Positions 38,933 through 56,399 of a stretch of 64,000 nucleotides of DNA are shown one piece after another (position 1 is the first letter of the stretch; each line of letters begins with the position of its first letter). The notes beneath the pieces are model-generated. The model was not told where the DNA came from. It searched no databases and saw only the letters and a list, made by a program, of their open reading frames with translations. The DNA lies in the NCBI GenBank assembly GCA_002841885.1, contig PHBE01000005.1:1-64000 (forward strand). The letters run 5' to 3'. Position numbers and translations under genes: made by a program. The stretch comes from Deltaproteobacteria bacterium HGW-Deltaproteobacteria-18 (GTDB lineage: Bacteria; Desulfobacterota; Desulfovibrionia; Desulfovibrionales; Desulfomicrobiaceae).

Positions 38933-41050
38933 CTATTGCCGCACCTTGTAAGCACGCGCCCATGGATAATTGTCAACGACCAAAGAAAACTCATCGCTAA
39001 AATCCGAAGCCGGGCGGAGCAGCATCTGCACCATCATGGACCGGTACATCTTGGCGTCCATCAGAAACACTTGGCGCGACATCTGGTTGATGACCACATG
39101 CGTACCCGTCCCGTGGGGCCACTGGAAATGCCTGACACCTTCGGCCTCCACCACGTCCATGGAATCAATGCGTGTGGACTTGCCGCCAACCACCAACGTG
39201 CCCGCGGCAGAATCCATGCGGACCTCGCCGCGCACCTGCTGAATCTTGCCGGGTGAACTGGCGCCCGAAGCAATATCCCAGTTTCCGTAATAGCTTATCC
39301 AGGAAGCCAAGCGCAGATTCTCCCAGGAAACAATGAAATAGTTAGACAAGCTCGTTGGCCAATTCGTGTCATCCAAGACTAACTCGGACAAAAATACCTG
39401 CGCATCGGCAACGTCCATTTTTTGGATGCCGGATACTGGATTCCCCGCGAAAAGAGCGGCCTGAACTCCTGCTGTTCTCGTCAGTCCGTCATCAAGCATG
39501 GCTTGCCCGAAATACCGAATCAACTGACTCGCCTGTCGCGAAGAGGTGGCGCTGTGTACTTGTGCAAGGGGATAAAGCCACTTCCCCGACTGTCGCCCGC
39601 CATCGCCGAACGTTGCCCGTTCAGCATAGTACTGCCCTGCGTAGCCGTAGTCCCACCACTGCCAGAGCAGTGCCTCCGGTTCCGCCTTCTCACGCAATTC
39701 CAAAAATGTCTCAGCATAGATTTTGGGCAGCACCGGCGCGGGTCTCACCTCCTGCATAAATACTGCGGAAGGCCACAACACAACGCAAGCCAAAACCAAC
39801 TGTGCGATCCAGCGCCGCCCTTGGCTCTGGCCAAGCATACTCATAAATTCACTCAACCCCAAACCAAGCCCCATACCGATACCCACGGTGCCGTACATGG
39901 CAAACCTGTTGCCAAGCTTAACGCTGGCAACACCGAGAGCCAGAAAGGGCAAAAACACAAGAAGCGCAGGACGACGCCAGCTGACAAAACCAAAGCCCAA
40001 AATACCCAGAACAAAAACGACCCAATTCCCTCCCATACGCGGTCCGAGCTGTCCCCAGTCAAGGTTCTGTGCCTCACGCACGCTCTGGGCTATATCGGGA
40101 AGTTTCATTCCGGTGGCGTTGTTCACCATTTCCGGGGTAGCTATCTTGGTGTACACATAAATCTTGCGCAACAATTTTTGGATTATCCCATCCAAATCAC
40201 CCAAGTACAGAATCACTGCGGCCAGCATGATCAGCATTGCCACCTGAACCATCAGAGGGATCGGTCTGCGACGTTGCAAACACGCCAACACTACGAGAAC
40301 TGACAGGGCCATCCCAATCCATCCGGCGAAAGCCGTTCCAAAAATCAGGAGTAACTCTGCCCAAAAATAGAATTTCCCTTTTTTTTTGACAGAAAAGAGC
40401 CCAACAATACCTGCCATACCCAAAGCCGGAAGTAGTATGCTCACGCTGCCAGGATATATATACAATGCTATCCCACCGCTCACACCAGCCCCTATAGCTA
40501 AAGCCAAACACCATCTGTCCCATCCTACTGAATCTTCGGATGTTCCAATGCGTTTGAACATCTCCAACCAGATGACAAGACAGCAAAGCATGGAAATCGG
40601 GAACAACAAATTTATGACATCCGTATCACAAAACCCAAGCCGGGTACGTACCAGAAATCCTAGTCCAGATGTGACTAAAATTCCAAAAACGAGTCCCCCC
40701 TCAGGCAAACGCAAAAAACGGGACATAAAGCATATTGGCAATGCCAACAAAGGAATAAATATTATCGGTGACCAAAACCCAGCAGCAGCGAGAGGAAATC
40801 CAAAATCTGCGACGGCTTTCAATATCAAGGTAAATGCTCGGTTGACATGCCGGCCAAGACCTTTCGCCCCAGCCAGCCACGTATAAGCGTCATGCGTAGC
40901 CATTAGCGGCTCGCCATCAACTAGAAACGACTGATTCTGCCACCAGGGGAGTTCGGCAAGTCGAATGACTACTGTTGTAAAAATAACAAGCAGTAATGCA
41001 AGCCAGAATTCTCCGGAAAGGGAAAGGGCAAAGCGCGTAGGTCTGGTCAT
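38933..41050 (-). CDS. pglB: STT3/PglB-type oligosaccharyltransferase
   Basis: 705 aa from ATG 41050 (TTG at 41089 is an alternative). About a dozen membrane helices precede a periplasmic C-terminal domain. Oligosaccharyltransferase residues are visible: HDAY with D54, the DTD motif (142-144, GFCDTDVINLL), an SVxE/TIxE-type loop SVRE (323-326), NRF (R382) and the acceptor-binding WWDYG (465-469). It would transfer lipid-linked glycan to Asn in exported proteins. A PglB homologue of Desulfovibrio is known to be an active oligosaccharyltransferase. It sits among the sugar genes that would build its donor. Confidence 0.93.
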   Translation of the reverse strand: MTRPTRFALSLSGEFWLALLLVIFTTVVIRLAELPWWQNQSFLVDGEPLMATHDAYTWLAGAKGLGRHVNRAFTLILKAVADFGFPLAAAGFWSPIIFIPLLALPICFMSRFLRLPEGGLVFGILVTSGLGFLVRTRLGFCDTDVINLLFPISMLCCLVIWLEMFKRIGTSEDSVGWDRWCLALAIGAGVSGGIALYIYPGSVSILLPALGMAGIVGLFSVKKKGKFYFWAELLLIFGTAFAGWIGMALSVLVVLACLQRRRPIPLMVQVAMLIMLAAVILYLGDLDGIIQKLLRKIYVYTKIATPEMVNNATGMKLPDIAQSVREAQNLDWGQLGPRMGGNWVVFVLGILGFGFVSWRRPALLVFLPFLALGVASVKLGNRFAMYGTVGIGMGLGLGLSEFMSMLGQSQGRRWIAQLVLACVVLWPSAVFMQEVRPAPVLPKIYAETFLELREKAEPEALLWQWWDYGYAGQYYAERATFGDGGRQSGKWLYPLAQVHSATSSRQASQLIRYFGQAMLDDGLTRTAGVQAALFAGNPVSGIQKMDVADAQVFLSELVLDDTNWPTSLSNYFIVSWENLRLASWISYYGNWDIASGASSPGKIQQVRGEVRMDSAAGTLVVGGKSTRIDSMDVVEAEGVRHFQWPHGTGTHVVINQMSRQVFLMDAKMYRSMMVQMLLRPASDFSDEFSLVVDNYPWARAYKVRQ

Positions 41051-41090
41051 CGGGGTTCCAGGGAAGATAGACAAATTGATAATAACCAAC

Positions 41091-47573: not shown

Positions 47574-48420
47574 TTAATCCTTGAGGGTTTCCCCACGGTG
47601 CATGTTTTTTCCATACTGCCGACAAAAGTATTCGGGCGTCATGTTGTTCAGGCTTGAATGCGGGCGCACGGAGTTGTAGTGCCGCCTCCATTCCTCGATC
47701 ACAACCCTTGCCTCTGCCCGACACCGGAACCATTCCATCGGCAGGCATTCGTCACGAAATTATACCGTTAAAACTCTCGTTCAAACCGTTCTGCCATGGC
47801 TTCTCAGGCTCAATCAGCGCCAGATCCAGAGACTCCCGAGCCGCCCATCTGTGCAGCGCCTTCGACACGAACTCCGGACCGTTGTCAGAACGCAGGCTCA
47901 AAGGGGCCCCCCGTTCGCTGATCAGGCGGGACAGCGCCTCGATCACCCGGCCCGACCTGATGCTACCGGCAACGTCTATAGCCAGGCATTCACGCGTGTA
48001 TTCGTCCACCACGGTCAGGCATTTGATCTGCTGCCCGTTTGCGCAGGCATCGTAGACAAAGTCATACGCCCACAGTTCGCTTGCTCCCATCAGCAGTCGT
48101 GGCCTCGGGCGGGATGCAGCCACTTGTTTTCGAGGCCGCTTCCTGGGCACCCGCAACCCAGCCTTGGGCCACAGCCGAAACGCCTTGTCGACGCCCATGA
48201 CATGCCCCAAGCGTTCCATGAACACGCTGATCCTGCAATATCCGAAGCGCGGATACGTCGCAGCAAGGTCTGCCATTAGCGGCTTGTCCCGGGCCTCCAG
48301 TCGTGACTCGTAGTGGAGCGATGACCGGGGAGTGGACAACAGCGCACACGCCCTGCGCTGTGAAAGCCCGCGACTCCTGGCGTATGCCACCTGGAGGCGT
48401 CGGGCGGGTGCGCCTACCAC
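47574..48420 (-). pseudogene. IS3-family OrfB transposase, frameshifted
   Basis: DDE integrase: DFVYDACAN (first D), RSDNGPEFVS (second D) and NESFNG (E) are present. A single-base frame change near 47757-47765 stops translation at TGA just after the Glu. The following about 60 codons (FRDECLPMEWFR, WRRHYNSVRPHSSLNN) continue in another frame to TAA at 47574. The enzyme is therefore truncated, unless this is a sequencing error. Confidence 0.85.
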
Positions 48421-48647
48421 TTTTTTGCGGCGATCTCCTTCATGACCTCGATTTCCAGGTCCCGTTCCGCAAGGATCTTCTTCAGCCGCGTGTTCTCTTG
48501 TTCCAGCAGGCGCAGACGCCTCACGTCATCGGCGGACATGCCGACAAACCGCTGGCGCAATGTATAGATCGTCTGCTCACTGATCCCATGCTTTTTGGCC
48601 ACCTGGGCCACCGGGCTGCGGTCAGCTTCGCGCAGGATGCCCACCAT
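48414..48647 (-). CDS. IS3-family OrfA transposase subunit
   Basis: 77 aa from the first ATG. Helix-turn-helix (VAKKHGISEQTIYTLRQRF) and leucine zipper (LRLLEQENTRLKKILAERDLEIEVMK) are clear. The usual N-terminus (KKGRFSEEQ) is encoded upstream of this ATG in the same frame but starts with ATA, so the original start codon may be lost. It overlaps orfB in the -1 frame. Confidence 0.8.
   Translation of the reverse strand: MVGILREADRSPVAQVAKKHGISEQTIYTLRQRFVGMSADDVRRLRLLEQENTRLKKILAERDLEIEVMKEIAAKKW
48420..48426 (-). other. Slippery heptamer A AAA AAG for OrfAB frameshifting
   Basis: The orfA codons GCA AAA AAG contain the classical -1 slippery heptamer in the right phase, a few codons before the orfA stop and at the orfB overlap. 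IS3-family elements use this to make the OrfAB transposase. Confidence 0.75.
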
Positions 48648-48811
48648 CTGCTCTTCGGAAAATCGTCCCTTTTTTATCAGTCCCCTCGTGGTTGAGGGAA
48701 AAACCTATCTCAAGTTTCGGCTGGCCTGAAAAGAGCCGGGCAGGCCACTGAAGACTTGTACAGAGATCTGGAACCACTTCTGTAGCTTCAGTCATGAATA
48801 CAAAATAACTA

Positions 48812-49426
48812 TCATACTTTCTCTAACAAAAACCAATTTATATCATCCAGAGGAAACGTATCTTTATGATATACAAAACCATAGTCAATAATTTTCAAAT
48901 CAGGATACTTTCGCAGCATCTCTCCTGCAAAATCTCTTTTAAACAATTTACCCTTGTGACCTCTATATTCTATCTCAACTGGAGTAGGGTTATAGTATTC
49001 AGCTATTAAAATATATTTATTTGTTGAAGAATAAATATTTTCATATGCTAGAGCCAGACTCTCTGGATTAATATGAATTAAAACACCCTTAACAAATGAT
49101 AGATCATGCTTAGGTGAATTAATTTTTTCTAAAATAGATGTGTTATAAATCGTAATATTAGAAAAATTCTGCAACTCCGAAACAGCTTTATTATTAATTT
49201 CTACTGCAGAAAGACTAATGTCTGGAAGCAAAAGGCGCAATGCCTTCAAATTTAGACCTATATTCGAACCAAACTCTATTACTGACTTTATTGGTCCAAT
49301 TTTTGAAATGATTTTTGAAAAAAAAACCACATTACTGACTACTTTGTTCGCCGATGAATTTCTTAAAATATAATCATCTCCAAACACTCCAGACCAGAAT
49401 AACTCTTGTTCCGTAGAATACTCCAT
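48812..49426 (-). CDS. Pseudaminic acid biosynthesis-associated methyltransferase
   Basis: 204 aa, Rossmann-type SAM methyltransferase. N-terminal STEQELFWSGVFGDDYI and SVIEFGSNIGLNLKAL (SAM site) match the family named pseudaminic acid biosynthesis-associated methylase; VKGVLIHINPE follows. It probably methylates the nonulosonic acid or a precursor. It is 8 nt downstream of the NeuB-like gene and very AT-rich. Confidence 0.8.
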   Translation of the reverse strand: MEYSTEQELFWSGVFGDDYILRNSSANKVVSNVVFFSKIISKIGPIKSVIEFGSNIGLNLKALRLLLPDISLSAVEINNKAVSELQNFSNITIYNTSILEKINSPKHDLSFVKGVLIHINPESLALAYENIYSSTNKYILIAEYYNPTPVEIEYRGHKGKLFKRDFAGEMLRKYPDLKIIDYGFVYHKDTFPLDDINWFLLEKV

Positions 49427-49434
49427 AAATCCTC

Positions 49435-50496
49435 CTAAATAAAATCGTCCATACTTATCATGCTTCCTGCTGAAATGGATTTATTAAATCGCCTTCCACA
49501 TACAGTATCAATCAAAGATGCAGATATCCCCGATCCTGGGCGCATTGCAGCGACCATATCATCGGACAATAAATCCCCAGAATTGACGTTTATTTTTAAA
49601 TACAAACTTTTAAAATACTTTTTACTTTGAACTAAATCTTCATACGCCGGCCTTAAGCAATACGAACCGAGCGCACGCTCAAGCTCCTTAATCCTCTCGA
49701 ACCAAAGGGCAAACTCACTCGGATCTAAAGCTTTGTTATGACCATTTTCTAAAATACTTCGATCTAAAGTTATGCGCTTTTCTAAAACGTTAACTCCCAT
49801 ACCAATGGACAAAAAATCTAAATCAAAGTCGCGTCCTTGGGGCGTATATCCAACCGGATACCCATATTGAGCTTTTAAAAATGGGATGGATCTGAAATTC
49901 ATGTCCTCGTATTGATTAGTATGAAAATCATGAAGAAAAATAACTCCCGTCCCACCCGCCTTCAAATACCAGTCTAGAACCTCATTCATTCCAGCAGTAG
50001 TGAAAACCCCTGTATCAATAATAATTGGCTTTCGCGTACGACCTATAGCCTGAATCAAGCGCTTATGACTAGAACTCCACGTGCAAATCTTATGAACAGA
50101 CACATTTGCTGTCTCTAAAATTGAAACGGCTTCCATATAATGGGAAGTGCAAATAAACTCCATCCCTTTCGATTCAACATAATTTTTAATATCGCACCAA
50201 TCTTGCACACTATATTCAAGTTTTTTAAACATTGAATACATATTTTCAGTCTTACTTCTACCGTCGAAAGTTTCATATGTATACTCTACACTCTTGTCAC
50301 CTAAAAGATAATCAGGACCTATCATCTGCATTTTTACAGCATCAACACCTAATCTTGACACAATATCGACCAGCTTAAAAGCGGTCTCTTTATTACCGCC
50401 ATTCGTAAGGCCTATATCAGCCATGATAAATATTGGCATTCCATCTCCGACATACCGACGACCAACCTTCACTGGACTTACATAAAAACTATTCAT
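49435..50496 (-). CDS. NeuB-like nonulosonate synthase, divergent
   Basis: 353 aa from ATG 50496, which overlaps the cytidylyltransferase stop by 8 nt. A NeuB TIM-barrel (ADIGLTNGGNKETA, GVDAVKMQMIGP, IDTGVFTTAGMNEV) is followed by a C-terminal SAF antifreeze-like domain (AAMRPGSGISASLID). It would condense a hexosamine with PEP. Usual motif EKHFTLD-GPDHKASL appears as EKRITLDRSILENGHNKALD, so specificity or activity may differ from the PseI gene upstream. Confidence 0.82.
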   Translation of the reverse strand: MNSFYVSPVKVGRRYVGDGMPIFIMADIGLTNGGNKETAFKLVDIVSRLGVDAVKMQMIGPDYLLGDKSVEYTYETFDGRSKTENMYSMFKKLEYSVQDWCDIKNYVESKGMEFICTSHYMEAVSILETANVSVHKICTWSSSHKRLIQAIGRTRKPIIIDTGVFTTAGMNEVLDWYLKAGGTGVIFLHDFHTNQYEDMNFRSIPFLKAQYGYPVGYTPQGRDFDLDFLSIGMGVNVLEKRITLDRSILENGHNKALDPSEFALWFERIKELERALGSYCLRPAYEDLVQSKKYFKSLYLKINVNSGDLLSDDMVAAMRPGSGISASLIDTVCGRRFNKSISAGSMISMDDFI

Positions 50497-51223
50497 CAAA
50501 AAGCCCTCCCTGCAACTCAACAATACCACTATCTACTAAGTATTCAGCATATTTAAAATCCATCAGCGTGTCTATATCCACAGAATTTTCTCTTGGCATG
50601 ACATAAGGAACGATATCCATATATTTGTAATGATTCTTTTCTAGCAGCGAATTTAAACTGTAAAACATAATAGCACCATTAGATCTATATGTAGATGGAC
50701 ACTCAGTTGATTTTGTTACGACATACTTACTTTCTGGAAAACAATGAAAAAGTCGCTTGCGACTTCCTTCATTGTCAATCAACCAAGCATTATATGGCGG
50801 ATATTCATTCTCAACAACACTCATAAGTGCATCTGCAGAACTCATTTTAAAAATCTTAAATGCCTCGACAATATCAGCGACGGAAGACAATGGACTCGTT
50901 GGCAACAAAACACATATATTATCAAAAGAAAATTCAATACTAGACAACTTACAAACAACATCTTTAACTACATCAACAATAGTATACGGATCATTTGACA
51001 AAGCAATTGGACGCATAAATGGAATCCAAGCACCGTACTCTTGAGACATAGATGCTATTTCTGCACATTCAGTCGACACCAAAACTTTATCAAAAATATT
51101 TGCCTTTATCGCCTTTCTGATAGCATAAGCAACAAGAGGGTGTCCAAAAAATAATCTTACGTTCTTGTTGGGAAATCTTACAGAACTACCCTTGCTAGGA
51201 ATGATGCACAATGTATTATTCAT
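50489..51223 (-). CDS. CMP-sugar (nonulosonate) cytidylyltransferase
   Basis: 244 aa of the NeuA/PseF family. IIPSKGSSVRFPNKNVR is the CTP-binding loop, DNICVLLPTSPLSS and VDIDTLMDFKYAEYL are the later conserved segments. It activates a nonulosonic acid as CMP-sugar. AT-rich. It starts 14 nt after pseI and overlaps the NeuB-like gene. Since the pseF position (53984-54241) holds a deleted gene, this may supply the missing activation step. Confidence 0.88.
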   Translation of the reverse strand: MNNTLCIIPSKGSSVRFPNKNVRLFFGHPLVAYAIRKAIKANIFDKVLVSTECAEIASMSQEYGAWIPFMRPIALSNDPYTIVDVVKDVVCKLSSIEFSFDNICVLLPTSPLSSVADIVEAFKIFKMSSADALMSVVENEYPPYNAWLIDNEGSRKRLFHCFPESKYVVTKSTECPSTYRSNGAIMFYSLNSLLEKNHYKYMDIVPYVMPRENSVDIDTLMDFKYAEYLVDSGIVELQGGLFDE

Positions 51224-51237
51224 AATATTATCACCCC

Positions 51238-52284
51238 CTACTCTTCTATTAAACTCATCGACACAGGCATCCCTCTGCTGACAGCAAATTTTAGCTTCCT
51301 ACCGATTACATGATCATAATATTTTGGAGGAAGACCTACTCCTGGACGAATTCTGCGAACATCGTTGGCACAGATGGTAGCTCCAACCGCTAAATCTCGA
51401 ACAAAAAACAATGACTTTCGAAAAATCAAGGAATTTTTTTCAACTTCTGGCCGCTTAAAACCAGGCATGCCAACAGCCAACCAAGCCTCTTTCGCTTCTA
51501 GGCAAACTCTTTCCAGATCACTAGGCTCTATTGAAAACGCGCTATCAGGCCCGCTGTCTTCTCGACTCAAAGTAAAATGTTTTTCAATAACGCTGGCCCC
51601 AAGGGCAACCGACGTAACAGCGGCTATTGTTCCCAATGTGTGATCCGATAACCCGCTTACAACTCCGAATCTGCGTGAAAGTTCAAGAATTTGACGCAAA
51701 TTAGCCTGATTTATTGGTGCCGGATAACTACTGATACAATGAAGCAAGATTAAATTAGCGCACCCAGATTCACGCGCAGCGTTAACTGCTTCTTCTATCT
51801 CTTCTTCGCTTGCCATGCCTGTTGACATAATCATCGGCTTACCCGTTCTAGCCGCATACCGTATAAGTGGAAGGTCGACGATTTCAAATGAAGCTATTTT
51901 GTAAGCTGGAGTCCCAAGATCTTCCAAGAGATCAACCGCTGTTTCGTCAAAAGGAGTAGAAAAAATGGTTATGCCGATACTACGGGCATGATCAAACATG
52001 GCTTGATGCCATTCATAAGGGGTTTCAGCCCATTTATAGAGATCATAGAGCTTGTAGCCATCCCATAATCCGCCTTTAATCATAAAATCCGGGGCATCAC
52101 AGTCGATGGTCAAGGTATCAGCAGTGTACGTCTGCAACTTGATCGCATCCGCTCCGCACCTGTGTGCGGCTTCAATGGTTTGAAGCGCGCGCTCCAACGA
52201 ACCGTTATGGTTTGCTGAAAGCTCTGCAATAATGTATGGTGGATGATCAGGGCCGATAGCACGGCCGTCAATGGTGAACGTCAT
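51238..52284 (-). CDS. pseI: Pseudaminic acid synthase
   Basis: 348 aa from ATG 52284 (TTG at 52290 possible). PYIIAELSANHNGSLERA, ADAIKLQTY, STPFDETAVDLLE, EKHFTLSREDSGPDSAFSIE and the SAF domain RRIRPGVGLPPKYYD are textbook PseI. It condenses 2,4-diacetamido-2,4,6-trideoxy-altrose with PEP to pseudaminic acid. It lies 143 bp downstream of the PseG-PseH fusion. Confidence 0.95.
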   Translation of the reverse strand: MTFTIDGRAIGPDHPPYIIAELSANHNGSLERALQTIEAAHRCGADAIKLQTYTADTLTIDCDAPDFMIKGGLWDGYKLYDLYKWAETPYEWHQAMFDHARSIGITIFSTPFDETAVDLLEDLGTPAYKIASFEIVDLPLIRYAARTGKPMIMSTGMASEEEIEEAVNAARESGCANLILLHCISSYPAPINQANLRQILELSRRFGVVSGLSDHTLGTIAAVTSVALGASVIEKHFTLSREDSGPDSAFSIEPSDLERVCLEAKEAWLAVGMPGFKRPEVEKNSLIFRKSLFFVRDLAVGATICANDVRRIRPGVGLPPKYYDHVIGRKLKFAVSRGMPVSMSLIEE

Positions 52285-52427
52285 CTTCAAATACCTGATT
52301 TGAATTTACAGTTTCTAATTTTCAGGATAAATTCTTATCCCTCGTACCAAAAAAGTGCCGGGGATTGTAAAAAGCCAACCTACCCAAGATCTAGATTGGA
52401 ATAGAGGCGTTTATCAAACTTGTCGGG

Positions 52428-53984
52428 TCAGAGTAAACGGCGATAGACAAGCTCGCCCTCCCCTTGATCCTCATGTGTGAAGCCAATCCGATTCAAGACT
52501 TTACGTGACCGAATGTTAAAATCTTTAACCCGGGCCAAAATGGTGGCATGTTTTACAGACTCGCGAAAAGCTAACATCGCAACCTGGAGCAACTGCTTCC
52601 CCAGGCCACGACCACGTGCACACGGATCTAAAGAATAGCTAACGACCCAGCCAGACGGACTATGGTCAAAACGAACCTGCCCAACTGGCAATCCATTTCC
52701 TGTTTCTAAAATAAATATGCGACAATGGTCTAAATCTCGCAACCGATCATAAAACCATTTCCGATGAGTTTCAGCGTTGATTTGTTCCGTATTAAAAGCA
52801 TTTTTACGAACCAGAGGGTCATTAGCCCAGGCCAAGAGTATCTTTTCATCATCTCTACGAGCCAGCCTTGCTTTAAGGGGAGTCTGGGAATTAAGTAATA
52901 CCACATCTGCAACTCGCTCTACGCCTTGTCCATCCACCAATTTTCGACACCTTGTAGACCAATCAGGCGAAATCCCTGATTCCAAAATTCTCTGGAGTTC
53001 TTGCGCAATTACCGTCTCACCTATGGCATCTTTATGCCCAAGATAACGAACCAAGCCAAGTCGTCCTAATTCTTCAGCGATTGGCCTCTGATTTTCGGCC
53101 AACGTGATAACGAGAGTTGGCAAGCCCAAACAGCAACGCTCCCAGGACGTCGCGCCTCCAGCGCCTACAGCAAGGTCAGCCTTAACAATTAATGACGCAA
53201 GAGTTGGCAGGTGCTCATGCAAACAAATACGTTGGTTTTCCGCAACCTGCCTCCGAATTGAATCAATGTGCGGACTTGCGGGACTAATGACAACGTCAAG
53301 CATAATATCATCACGGCGTAATGACTTAAAAGCAGAAACCACCATACCAGTCAGACTATCACTATCTGCACCGCCAAAATATACCAAAATTCGACGAACA
53401 GGCCCTTCTCTAGGTGGAACACGATCATGCAACTCTGCATATATGGGATGCAAAAGACCATATTCCGGACCAAGCATCAATCCGCAATTCTCAGGAACTA
53501 CGCTATTATAGCGGCTCTGCCAATCCTTAACTAAATTCTGGTCCAGCAACAAGTCACAGTTATGCTGACGATCTGCAAGGTCATCAATTATTAAAATCTT
53601 GCGGCAAACGGAACGCAACTCTCGTTCCCAATTAGCGTCGAGCGCATAATGGTCAACAACAAGCCAATCAACAGCCATATCCCGAATAACAGAACGTACC
53701 TGCGCAGCGTCCGTCTTCCAATTTGTGCCGAGCCATGCAGTATGTGCTGGCGAGTCAAGTTCGTACTCAATTTCCTGTGTTATATCTGTGGCGGGGAGAT
53801 TGTGCACAGTAAATTCCCGTTCGGAAACAAGGTCGCTCAAATTTCCGGGATGTTCGCGGGAGATGAAATGACATTCGCATCCGCGTTCGCGCAAAGCTTC
53901 AGCAAGTGTCAGGCAGCGCATGACATGGCCCGTGCCGATTTCTAGAGACGCATCGACGCGAAAAACGATAATTCTCGGTCTCAT
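52428..53984 (-). CDS. pseG: PseG-PseH fusion (UDP-sugar hydrolase and N-acetyltransferase)
   Basis: 518 aa. Residues 1-335 are PseG (FRVDASLEIGTGHVMRCLTLAEAL, IIDDLADR, VYFGGADSDSLTG, GAGGATSWERCCLGLPT), removing UDP from the diacetamido-altrose. Residues about 355-518 are a GNAT domain of PseH type (LARRDDEKILLAWAND, NAFNTEQINAETHRKWF, ARGRGLGKQLLQ) that N-acetylates C4. Separate genes in Campylobacter and Helicobacter; fused here. ATG at 53984 with GAGGAA 6 nt upstream overlaps the pseF relic stop (TAATG). Confidence 0.92.
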   Translation of the reverse strand: MRPRIIVFRVDASLEIGTGHVMRCLTLAEALRERGCECHFISREHPGNLSDLVSEREFTVHNLPATDITQEIEYELDSPAHTAWLGTNWKTDAAQVRSVIRDMAVDWLVVDHYALDANWERELRSVCRKILIIDDLADRQHNCDLLLDQNLVKDWQSRYNSVVPENCGLMLGPEYGLLHPIYAELHDRVPPREGPVRRILVYFGGADSDSLTGMVVSAFKSLRRDDIMLDVVISPASPHIDSIRRQVAENQRICLHEHLPTLASLIVKADLAVGAGGATSWERCCLGLPTLVITLAENQRPIAEELGRLGLVRYLGHKDAIGETVIAQELQRILESGISPDWSTRCRKLVDGQGVERVADVVLLNSQTPLKARLARRDDEKILLAWANDPLVRKNAFNTEQINAETHRKWFYDRLRDLDHCRIFILETGNGLPVGQVRFDHSPSGWVVSYSLDPCARGRGLGKQLLQVAMLAFRESVKHATILARVKDFNIRSRKVLNRIGFTHEDQGEGELVYRRLL

Positions 53985-54241
53985 TACCATTCCTCAATCT
54001 TGCTCAGGGCCCTGAGCATTAAGTCCGCTCGGTGCCAGTCCTCATCGGTGTCTGCGCCCCATTGATGGGAAATATCCGCGTTTTCTGCATCACCAGTAGA
54101 AATGATGACCTGCTCGAAACACCTACTCTTCCGCGCAGGTTCAATGGCCCAGGTAATCATAGGCCTGCCGCTAAATTCCCTGATGTTTTTGCGGGAAACG
54201 CGATTAATGCCACCCCTCGCGGGGATCACTGCCGGCTTCAT
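53984..54241 (-). pseudogene. pseF: pseF relic with in-frame internal deletion
   Basis: 85 codons where a PseF cytidylyltransferase has about 230. The N-terminal CTP-loop region (VIPARGGINRVSRKN, FSGRPMITWAIEPA, QVIISTGDAENADISHQWGA) is joined directly to the C-terminal end (DTDEDWHRADLMLRAL). The middle, carrying the sugar-binding and catalytic residues, is missing. The loop also has Ile-Asn where Ser-Lys is usual. The reading frame is kept and the gene still overlaps pseC (ATGA) and pseGH. It is probably non-functional, but a short truncated protein could be made. Confidence 0.85.
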
Positions 54242-55398
54242 GGCTCCACCGCCTTGCAAAGAGCCTCCACGACGGCGACCTGTTGACCTTCGGTCATGCC
54301 ATGAAACATGGGAAGGCTAATCGCTTCGGCATAATAGCTCTCAGACTGAGGATAATCCCCTGGCTCAAAACCAAAATTTCGGTAGTAGGGTTGGGTGTGA
54401 ACCGGAATGTAGTGCACATTTACGCCGATGCCTTGATTGCGCATGCTTTTGAAAATCTGGTCGCGTGATCCGCCCGTTTTTCCATGGTTCGTACGGATAA
54501 CATATAAATGCAAACCTGAGTACGAGTCTGGATGCTGCCAAGGCGTGATTACGCAAACTCCAGCCAACATTTCATCGTAGCGCCGTGCCAAGGCATGGCG
54601 GCGTGATACAAATTCATCCAACCTTTTTATCTGACTAGCACCGAGTGCAGCCTGCAGTTCAGTCATTCGATAATTAAACCCAAGTTCGATCTGTTGATAA
54701 TACCACGGCCCGTCAGGGGACTGGGTCATCAAGTCCGGATCACGAGTAATTCCGTGGCTTCGAAGAAGGGACATCCGATTCGCCAGACTAATGTCGTTTG
54801 TCGTCGCCATCCCCCCCTCAGCGGTGGTAATGATTTTGACGGGATGAAAACTGAAAACGGTTATGTCGCTGTGCCGGCAATTACCTATGAATTCTCCTCG
54901 GTATTTGCCGCCAATGGCGTGGGAAGCATCCTCAATAATTTTGAATCCATAGCGCCCTCCTAATGCATGAATGGCCGCCATGTCGCAAGACTGGCCACAG
55001 AGATGAACGGGAACAACTATCTTAGGCAAACATCCCTCACGTTCAGCTTTTTCAAGCTTCCTTTCCAGTGCGAGAGGGCAAAGATTGTAAGTGCGTGGAT
55101 CAATATCAACAAAGTCGACACGAGCACCGCAGTACAACCCGCAATTCGCGGAAGCTACGAAGGTAATCGGAGTCGTCCAGAGCCAATCCCCAGGCCCAAG
55201 ATTCAAAGCAAGGCATGCGATGTGAAGAGCTGAAGTAGCGCTATTCACGGCTACAGCATGTTCTGCCCCCACATGATTGGAGACTGCCTGCTCGAAACGC
55301 GGAACCACGGGACCCTGCGTAAGAAAGTCTGAGCGCAGGACATCAACCACCGCATCAATATCGGCTTGGATAATTTCTTGGCGGCCGTAGGGTATCAT
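54238..55398 (-). CDS. pseC: UDP-4-amino-4,6-dideoxy-L-AltNAc aminotransferase
   Basis: 386 aa DegT/DnrJ-type PLP enzyme. IPYGRQEIIQADIDAV, VNSATSALHIACLAL, DASHAIGGKYRG and the Schiff-base Lys in SFHPVKIITTAEGGM are present. It aminates the product of PseB. It follows pseB by 2 nt and overlaps the pseF relic. Confidence 0.95.
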   Translation of the reverse strand: MIPYGRQEIIQADIDAVVDVLRSDFLTQGPVVPRFEQAVSNHVGAEHAVAVNSATSALHIACLALNLGPGDWLWTTPITFVASANCGLYCGARVDFVDIDPRTYNLCPLALERKLEKAEREGCLPKIVVPVHLCGQSCDMAAIHALGGRYGFKIIEDASHAIGGKYRGEFIGNCRHSDITVFSFHPVKIITTAEGGMATTNDISLANRMSLLRSHGITRDPDLMTQSPDGPWYYQQIELGFNYRMTELQAALGASQIKRLDEFVSRRHALARRYDEMLAGVCVITPWQHPDSYSGLHLYVIRTNHGKTGGSRDQIFKSMRNQGIGVNVHYIPVHTQPYYRNFGFEPGDYPQSESYYAEAISLPMFHGMTEGQQVAVVEALCKAVEP

Positions 55399-55400
55399 AC

Positions 55401-56399
55401 TTAGATATTGCCTATTTTATCGTAATTTTCCAGAATCCAGGAAGATAATTCCTCGCGTGACATCCAATCAGTATTCCCATTACTCGTATAACTAAAACCT
55501 TCTTGCACTTTCTTACCATCTTTAATTCGCCTTGGACAATCCGACCAATTATTAATTGCCGGCAATATCTTGTAATATTCAGGATAATCGTAAGTATAAT
55601 ATGAATCATCCTCGCCAATCATTTGCTCATGCAGTTTCTCCCCGGGCCGAATACCTACAAATTCTAGTTTAGCATCTGGAGCTATCGCAAGCGCTAAATC
55701 AGTAACCTTCATTGATGGAATTTTTTTAACATAGACTTCTCCACCAACCATATCCTCAAAAGCCCGCCATACCAATTCTACACCTTGCTCTAACGTAATC
55801 ATAAAACGCGTCATGCGTTCATCGGTTATTGGCAAAACGCCCCTATCCTTGATTGACATAAAAAATGGAATCACAGAACCGCGAGAGCCCATTACGTTCC
55901 CATAACGTACCACTGAAAATTTTGTTGTCTTTCCGCCAGCATAAGAATTACCTGCTACAAACAGCTTATCAGAAGCGAGCTTTGTTGCGCCGTAAAGATT
56001 GACTGGACTGCTAGCCTTGTCCGTTGAAAGAGCGACAACACGCTGCACTTTCTTGTCGATGCAAGCATCTATAAGATTCATAGCGCCGTTTATATTTGTT
56101 TTAACACACTCAAAAGGATTATATTCCGCTGTAGGAACAATCTTTGTCGCAGCAGCGTGGACAACGTAATCAACCCCGTCAAGAGCACGATAAAGACGCT
56201 CTCTGTCCCGCACATCACCAATAAAAAAACGAACTCGATCGTCACCTTGAAATTTTTGGGCCATCTCCCATTGTTTCATTTCGTCTCTGGAAAAAATAAT
56301 CACTTTCGCTGGATCGTATTTGCCAAGAGTCATTGGCACAAAGGCGTTTCCAAAAGATCCCGTTCCACCGGTAACAAGAATTGTCTTATTATTAAACAT
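55401..56399 (-). CDS. pseB: UDP-GlcNAc 4,6-dehydratase/5-epimerase
   Basis: 332 aa soluble extended SDR. ILVTGGTGSFGNAF, IIFSRDEMKQWEMAQ and STDKASSPVNLYGATK (catalytic Tyr/Lys) are characteristic of PseB/FlaA1. It makes UDP-4-keto-6-deoxy-L-AltNAc, the first pseudaminic acid step. It lacks membrane helices, unlike the CapD-type dehydratase at 35017-36990. Moderately AT-rich. Confidence 0.95.
   Translation of the reverse strand: MFNNKTILVTGGTGSFGNAFVPMTLGKYDPAKVIIFSRDEMKQWEMAQKFQGDDRVRFFIGDVRDRERLYRALDGVDYVVHAAATKIVPTAEYNPFECVKTNINGAMNLIDACIDKKVQRVVALSTDKASSPVNLYGATKLASDKLFVAGNSYAGGKTTKFSVVRYGNVMGSRGSVIPFFMSIKDRGVLPITDERMTRFMITLEQGVELVWRAFEDMVGGEVYVKKIPSMKVTDLALAIAPDAKLEFVGIRPGEKLHEQMIGEDDSYYTYDYPEYYKILPAINNWSDCPRRIKDGKKVQEGFSYTSNGNTDWMSREELSSWILENYDKIGNI

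Follow-up and report, generated by a model that had tools for sequence, protein, structure and literature searches.

In the 64,000-nucleotide stretch of contig PHBE01000005.1 analyzed here (the window), the cytidylyltransferase gene pseF of a pseudaminic acid (Pse) cluster has probably been displaced by a non-orthologous gene of the same run, pseF2, leaving behind an in-frame, non-functional relic. The genes concerned, all on the minus strand, are the following:

55401 to 56399, minus strand: pseB, intact (TIGR03589; about 84% amino acid identity to relatives)
54238 to 55398, minus strand: pseC, intact (TIGR03588; about 84% amino acid identity to relatives)
53984 to 54241, minus strand: pseF1 relic, an in-frame fusion of codons 1-63 with the final 22 of the 233 codons of a full pseF
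52428 to 53990, minus strand: pseGH fusion, PseG (TIGR03590) plus a GNAT domain of PseH type
51238 to 52290, minus strand: pseI, intact (TIGR03586, 495 bits)
50489 to 51223, minus strand: pseF2, presumed substitute cytidylyltransferase for nonulosonate (GC 0.35)
49435 to 50496, minus strand: neuB2, NeuB/PseI-like paralogue sharing 8 bp with the end of pseF2, with both metal-binding His positions changed
48812 to 49426, minus strand: Pse biosynthesis-associated methylase (TIGR03587, 273 bits; GC 0.31)

An In-Frame Remnant of pseF

The 85-codon open reading frame at 54241-53984 (minus strand) was confirmed and is read as a pseF stub. The PseF profile TIGR03584 recognizes only its first ~61 residues (profile positions 2-62; 79.7 bits, E = 2.4e-22), so that it falls under the curated cut-off of 205.7 bits and is not full length, as a functional PseF should be. 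For comparison we used the syntenic full-length pseF genes (233 amino acids) of three congeneric genomes, G002, G012, and G013 (loci L035, L036, and L037), in which the gene sits between pseC and pseGH, matching the position of the stub. Alignment with these genes places the junction near codon 63/212 and bears out the preliminary description of an internal deletion that spared the two ends of the gene; the loss, there put at about 140 central residues, amounts to 148 codons (702 - 258 = 444 bp), a multiple of three and thus in frame. The deleted part includes the RSQDL block, the first Asp of the DIDT motif, and 22 columns that are at least 90% conserved in the family.

The alternative foreseen at the outset, that a full pseF was collapsed during assembly, is one to which we give very little credence, even though the genome is a draft of 37 contigs. 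The breakpoints lack repeats, the junction region is single-copy with no repeat spanning it, and the retained part has also lost conserved residues by point changes. In the pseF of the relatives identity at the breakpoints is only ~2 bp, and collapse between repeats is therefore unlikely. The missing segment was not found elsewhere in the 99.97%-complete assembly, whose other TIGR03584/PF02348 matches are only 50489-51223, KdsB on contig C20, and a weak match on contig C2.

Decay of the Retained Parts

Family conservation was taken from an alignment of 37 full-length PseF sequences, a column counting as conserved at 90% or more. Among the 32 conserved columns that the stub retains, seven have been lost (S12I, K13N, I15V, P16S, V47I, D50G, and I54N), while full-length members miss 0.65 of them on average and three at most (binomial P ~3e-6, with columns treated as independent). 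The substitutions reach the CTP-binding motif, GGINRVSRKN against GGSKR(I/V)PRKN in the family, from which Ser-Lys has disappeared; in the metal motif D(I/V)DT the Ile of DIDT was deleted along with the first Asp. Since dS between pseB, pseC, pseG, and pseI and their congeneric counterparts is saturated, we counted changes at residues that all three congeners share instead of contrasting dN/dS. Such residues are changed at 22 of 75 positions in the stub against 158 of 1,168 in pseB, pseC, pseGH, and pseI (Fisher p = 5e-4). Gene by gene the counts are 32/305, 39/340, 47/245, and 40/278, respectively, the contrast with pseGH alone being marginal (p = 0.046).

By these counts, the protein sequence of the stub is decaying faster than those of the neighbouring genes. 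A syntenic intact orthologue in relatives, a disabling lesion, and relaxed constraint together mark a pseudogene relic, and from its sequence we conclude that it cannot act as a cytidylyltransferase. We rejected the idea of a conserved short protein, given that no similar in-frame stub occurs among the matches from ~100 relatives. Two other damaged pseF genes were encountered, neither an in-frame stub: one consists of an N-terminal fragment joined to unrelated sequence (L209:8157-8375, genome G035) and one carries a frame break (L211:2384-3078, genome G039).

A Second Cytidylyltransferase

Besides KdsB, pseF2 encodes the only full-length cytidylyltransferase of its kind in the genome and, on the evidence of TIGR03584/PF02348 matches, the only plausible candidate for a replacement. 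It aligns over positions 1-219 of the 222 of TIGR03584 at 167.3 bits, below the 205.7-bit cut-off. Structural matches of its AlphaFold model (pLDDT 91) are CMP-NeuAc and CMP-Pse synthetases, 9ftb/9ftc among them, and 1eyr, 6ifd, and 9ftb are its top Foldseek matches. In accordance with membership of the CMP-nonulosonate synthetases, the fold is full length and DIDT, K20-N21, and YxxNGA are kept; motif I (KGSSVR) is without the usual Arg and Lys. The same two residues are replaced throughout a clade formed by pseF2 and the sequences of L046, L047, and L200, with a motif I resembling [AS]KxGS[TV]R in place of ARGGSKR.

In the tree, pseF2 groups with the cytidylyltransferases of G031, G078, and G609 (support 96/91). 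The four remaining NeuB2-linked cytidylyltransferases branch in other places, and taken together the NeuB2-linked enzymes are closer to LegF than to PseF1. Because of this position and the score below the PseF cut-off, its substrate is assigned from genomic context, from which we infer that pseF2 activates Pse or a derivative. A scan of genome contigs with the single pseF2 protein gave no match, and an alignment-based scan brought up mainly canonical PseF and LegF-type loci rather than those linked to NeuB2.

NeuB2, the Methylase and the Low-GC Module

Base composition sets pseF2 (GC 0.35), neuB2 (0.38), and the methylase gene (0.31) apart from pseB-pseI (0.41-0.53) and from the window as a whole (0.53). 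The module adjoins two overlapping open reading frames at 47752-48695 (GC 0.60) that, on visual inspection, resemble an IS3-type transposase pair and may bear on its arrival. The methylase also accompanies canonical-type PseF in G038 and G082 and is therefore not tied to pseF2.

NeuB2 was examined for the His residues of SDH and EKH, which, from Neisseria NeuB, we take to be metal ligands. Neither is present in the window copy, which has TPQ and EKR at these positions, whereas in seven relatives NeuB2 retains SDH but reads EKT in the second motif. The window copy also sits on a very long tree branch, and given such divergence the module may not be fully working. Judging from the tree and gene neighbourhoods, NeuB2 is a distinct clade of NeuB paralogues linked to pse clusters.

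The Module in Related Genomes

We searched 247 genomes of the order by NeuB2 alignment, using a profile built from three of the eight eventual finds, the window included. Eight of these genomes contain NeuB2, with scores of at least 390 bits against 289 for the next match; for the window the score is circular, since its sequence is part of the profile. In all seven other genomes neuB2 lies directly beside one cytidylyltransferase gene within a cluster containing pseB, pseC, and pseI, with pseG recognized in six, and none of these seven clusters holds a second cytidylyltransferase. The G031 genome yields only one further cytidylyltransferase match, weak and KdsB-like. The congeners G002, G012, and G013 lack the pseF2-neuB2-methylase module in their pse loci, and no genome was found to combine the module with an intact pseF.

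Displacement, Loss or Switch?

We favour non-orthologous displacement of pseF by pseF2. An ancestral operon of the genus type, pseB-pseC-pseF-pseGH-pseI, would have gained after pseI a low-GC module comprising a divergent cytidylyltransferase, a NeuB paralogue, and a Pse-associated methylase. With pseF2 able to make the CMP-activated sugar, pseF would have become redundant and then lost 444 bp between two sites that share next to no homology; the CTP-binding motif of the stub has also collected substitutions, and the ends overlapping pseC and pseGH have stayed, so that pseGH could still be translated by coupling. Both the order, gain before loss, and the horizontal gain of the module are what we infer. 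In support, pseB and pseC are ~84% identical to those of congeners that keep a full pseF and have no pseF2-neuB2 in the locus, the module type supplies the sole cytidylyltransferase of other pse clusters, and the remaining pathway genes are intact. Against this stand the score of pseF2 below the equivalog cut-off (167 vs. 205.7) and its affinity to the LegF type rather than PseF1, the altered motif I, the strong divergence of the window's NeuB2, and the failure to find the module beside an intact pseF.

Alternatively, the whole Pse pathway might be on its way out, pseF being the first gene to go, with no CMP-Pse made. A dead pseF and a NeuB2 without either metal-ligand His would fit such a course; however, pseB, pseC, pseG, and pseI are full length, score above their family cut-offs, and are less changed than the stub, and a second cytidylyltransferase stands in the same gene run, so that we regard it as improbable. 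Somewhat less improbable, though still doubtful, is a scenario in which pseF2, neuB2, and the methylase make and activate a different nonulosonic acid, the loss of pseF having switched the surface sugar. The closeness of pseF2 to LegF, the separate clade of the relatives' neuB2 with its EKT, and the constant adjacency of neuB2 to a cytidylyltransferase gene could be so explained. Yet PseI is always present too, and the clusters hold pseB, pseC, (pseG), and pseI, with no second sugar pathway seen there. More tentatively than displacement itself, we suggest that the cytidylyltransferase-NeuB2 pair might define a so far undescribed kind of Pse cluster, having two synthase paralogues (one of them without a usual metal-ligand His), which would make a modified nonulosonic acid (or form a mixed synthase complex) and whose arrival would render the standard pseF dispensable.

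Translational Coupling Signals

Two signals flank the relic:

54238 to 54241, minus strand: ATGA overlap of the pseC stop and the pseF start, conserved in relatives
53982 to 53998, minus strand: GAGG Shine-Dalgarno-like site within the final pseF codons, together with TAATG; GAGGAATGGTGATG or a close variant in relatives

TAATG, at 53986-53982, forms the overlap of the pseF stop and the pseGH start, for which relatives have TGATG. The overlaps with pseC and pseGH are thus retained, as originally noted. The further proposal that in-frame loss was selected to keep coupling finds its signals in place but little to support selection itself. Under that proposal the stub would be a translated bridge that passes ribosomes on from pseC to the start of pseGH, in agreement with both overlaps, with the GAGG site for pseGH in its last codons, with TTGAGGAATGGT, which is identical in G013, and with a frame open through 85 codons. 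Nevertheless, any deletion has a one-in-three chance of preserving the frame, in simulations 20 random substitutions leave the frame open with probability 0.49, the overlaps are inherited and need no new selection to be kept, and the protein sequence of the stub decays faster than its neighbours', all of which leaves the bridge a possibility that we rate well below an even chance. Even so, retention of a stub that brings ribosomes to pseGH may be favoured by coupling.

Glycan Context

The pse cluster is part of a polysaccharide/glycan locus that also encodes group 1 glycosyltransferases and an STT3/PglB-like oligosaccharyltransferase. The latter, at 38933-41089, is surrounded by glycosyltransferases together with a GT4-family (PF00953) transferase, possibly an N-linked glycosylation locus near the pse genes. 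Flagellin glycosylation by Maf was rejected as a use of Pse, the genome containing no PF01973 (Maf-type) match; for the same reason, the more likely destination of Pse is a surface or protein-linked glycan and not Maf-dependent flagellin. In L035:4271-6469 and L046:6378-6965 a formyltransferase-like sequence, recognized by eye, stands where the PseH acetyltransferase would be expected; in L035 it is fused to PseG. This suggests N-formyl Pse derivatives.

Comparison with Known Systems

Excerpts of earlier reports describe a methyltransferase encoded upstream of pseF in Clostridium (PMC13317340) and Moritella strains with separate NeuB genes of the Neu and Pse pathways (PMC7371886); the pseF2-neuB2 pair is not described in these excerpts. 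In a search of open-licence papers, neither a pseF relic nor the pair turned up. The enzyme pair is poorly characterized, and the recurrence of a divergent cytidylyltransferase and a NeuB paralogue as the sole such enzyme in several pse clusters offers a testable assignment. More generally, an apparently missing step of the Pse pathway need not mean that the sugar has been lost.

The N-terminal part of the stub matches the PseF family (TIGR03584; Aeromonas caviae structures 9ftb/9ftc, to which an intact congeneric PseF aligns with 313 bits), but unlike these enzymes it is without 148 central residues, has GGINR for GGSKR, and lacks the first Asp of DIDT. NeuB2 shares the two-domain fold of NeuB/PseI synthases with a SAF domain (PDB 8h2c, 1xuu) and differs from them in the EKT of its clade for EKH and, in the window copy, in EKR and in TPQ for SDH. 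The stub itself is an ordinary relic, and the case looks like ordinary gene replacement seen partway. As in other pseudogenes left by non-orthologous gene displacement, the old gene is degraded in place while a divergent gene of the same class stands in the same run; what differs here is that the deletion is in frame and the operon overlaps are kept.
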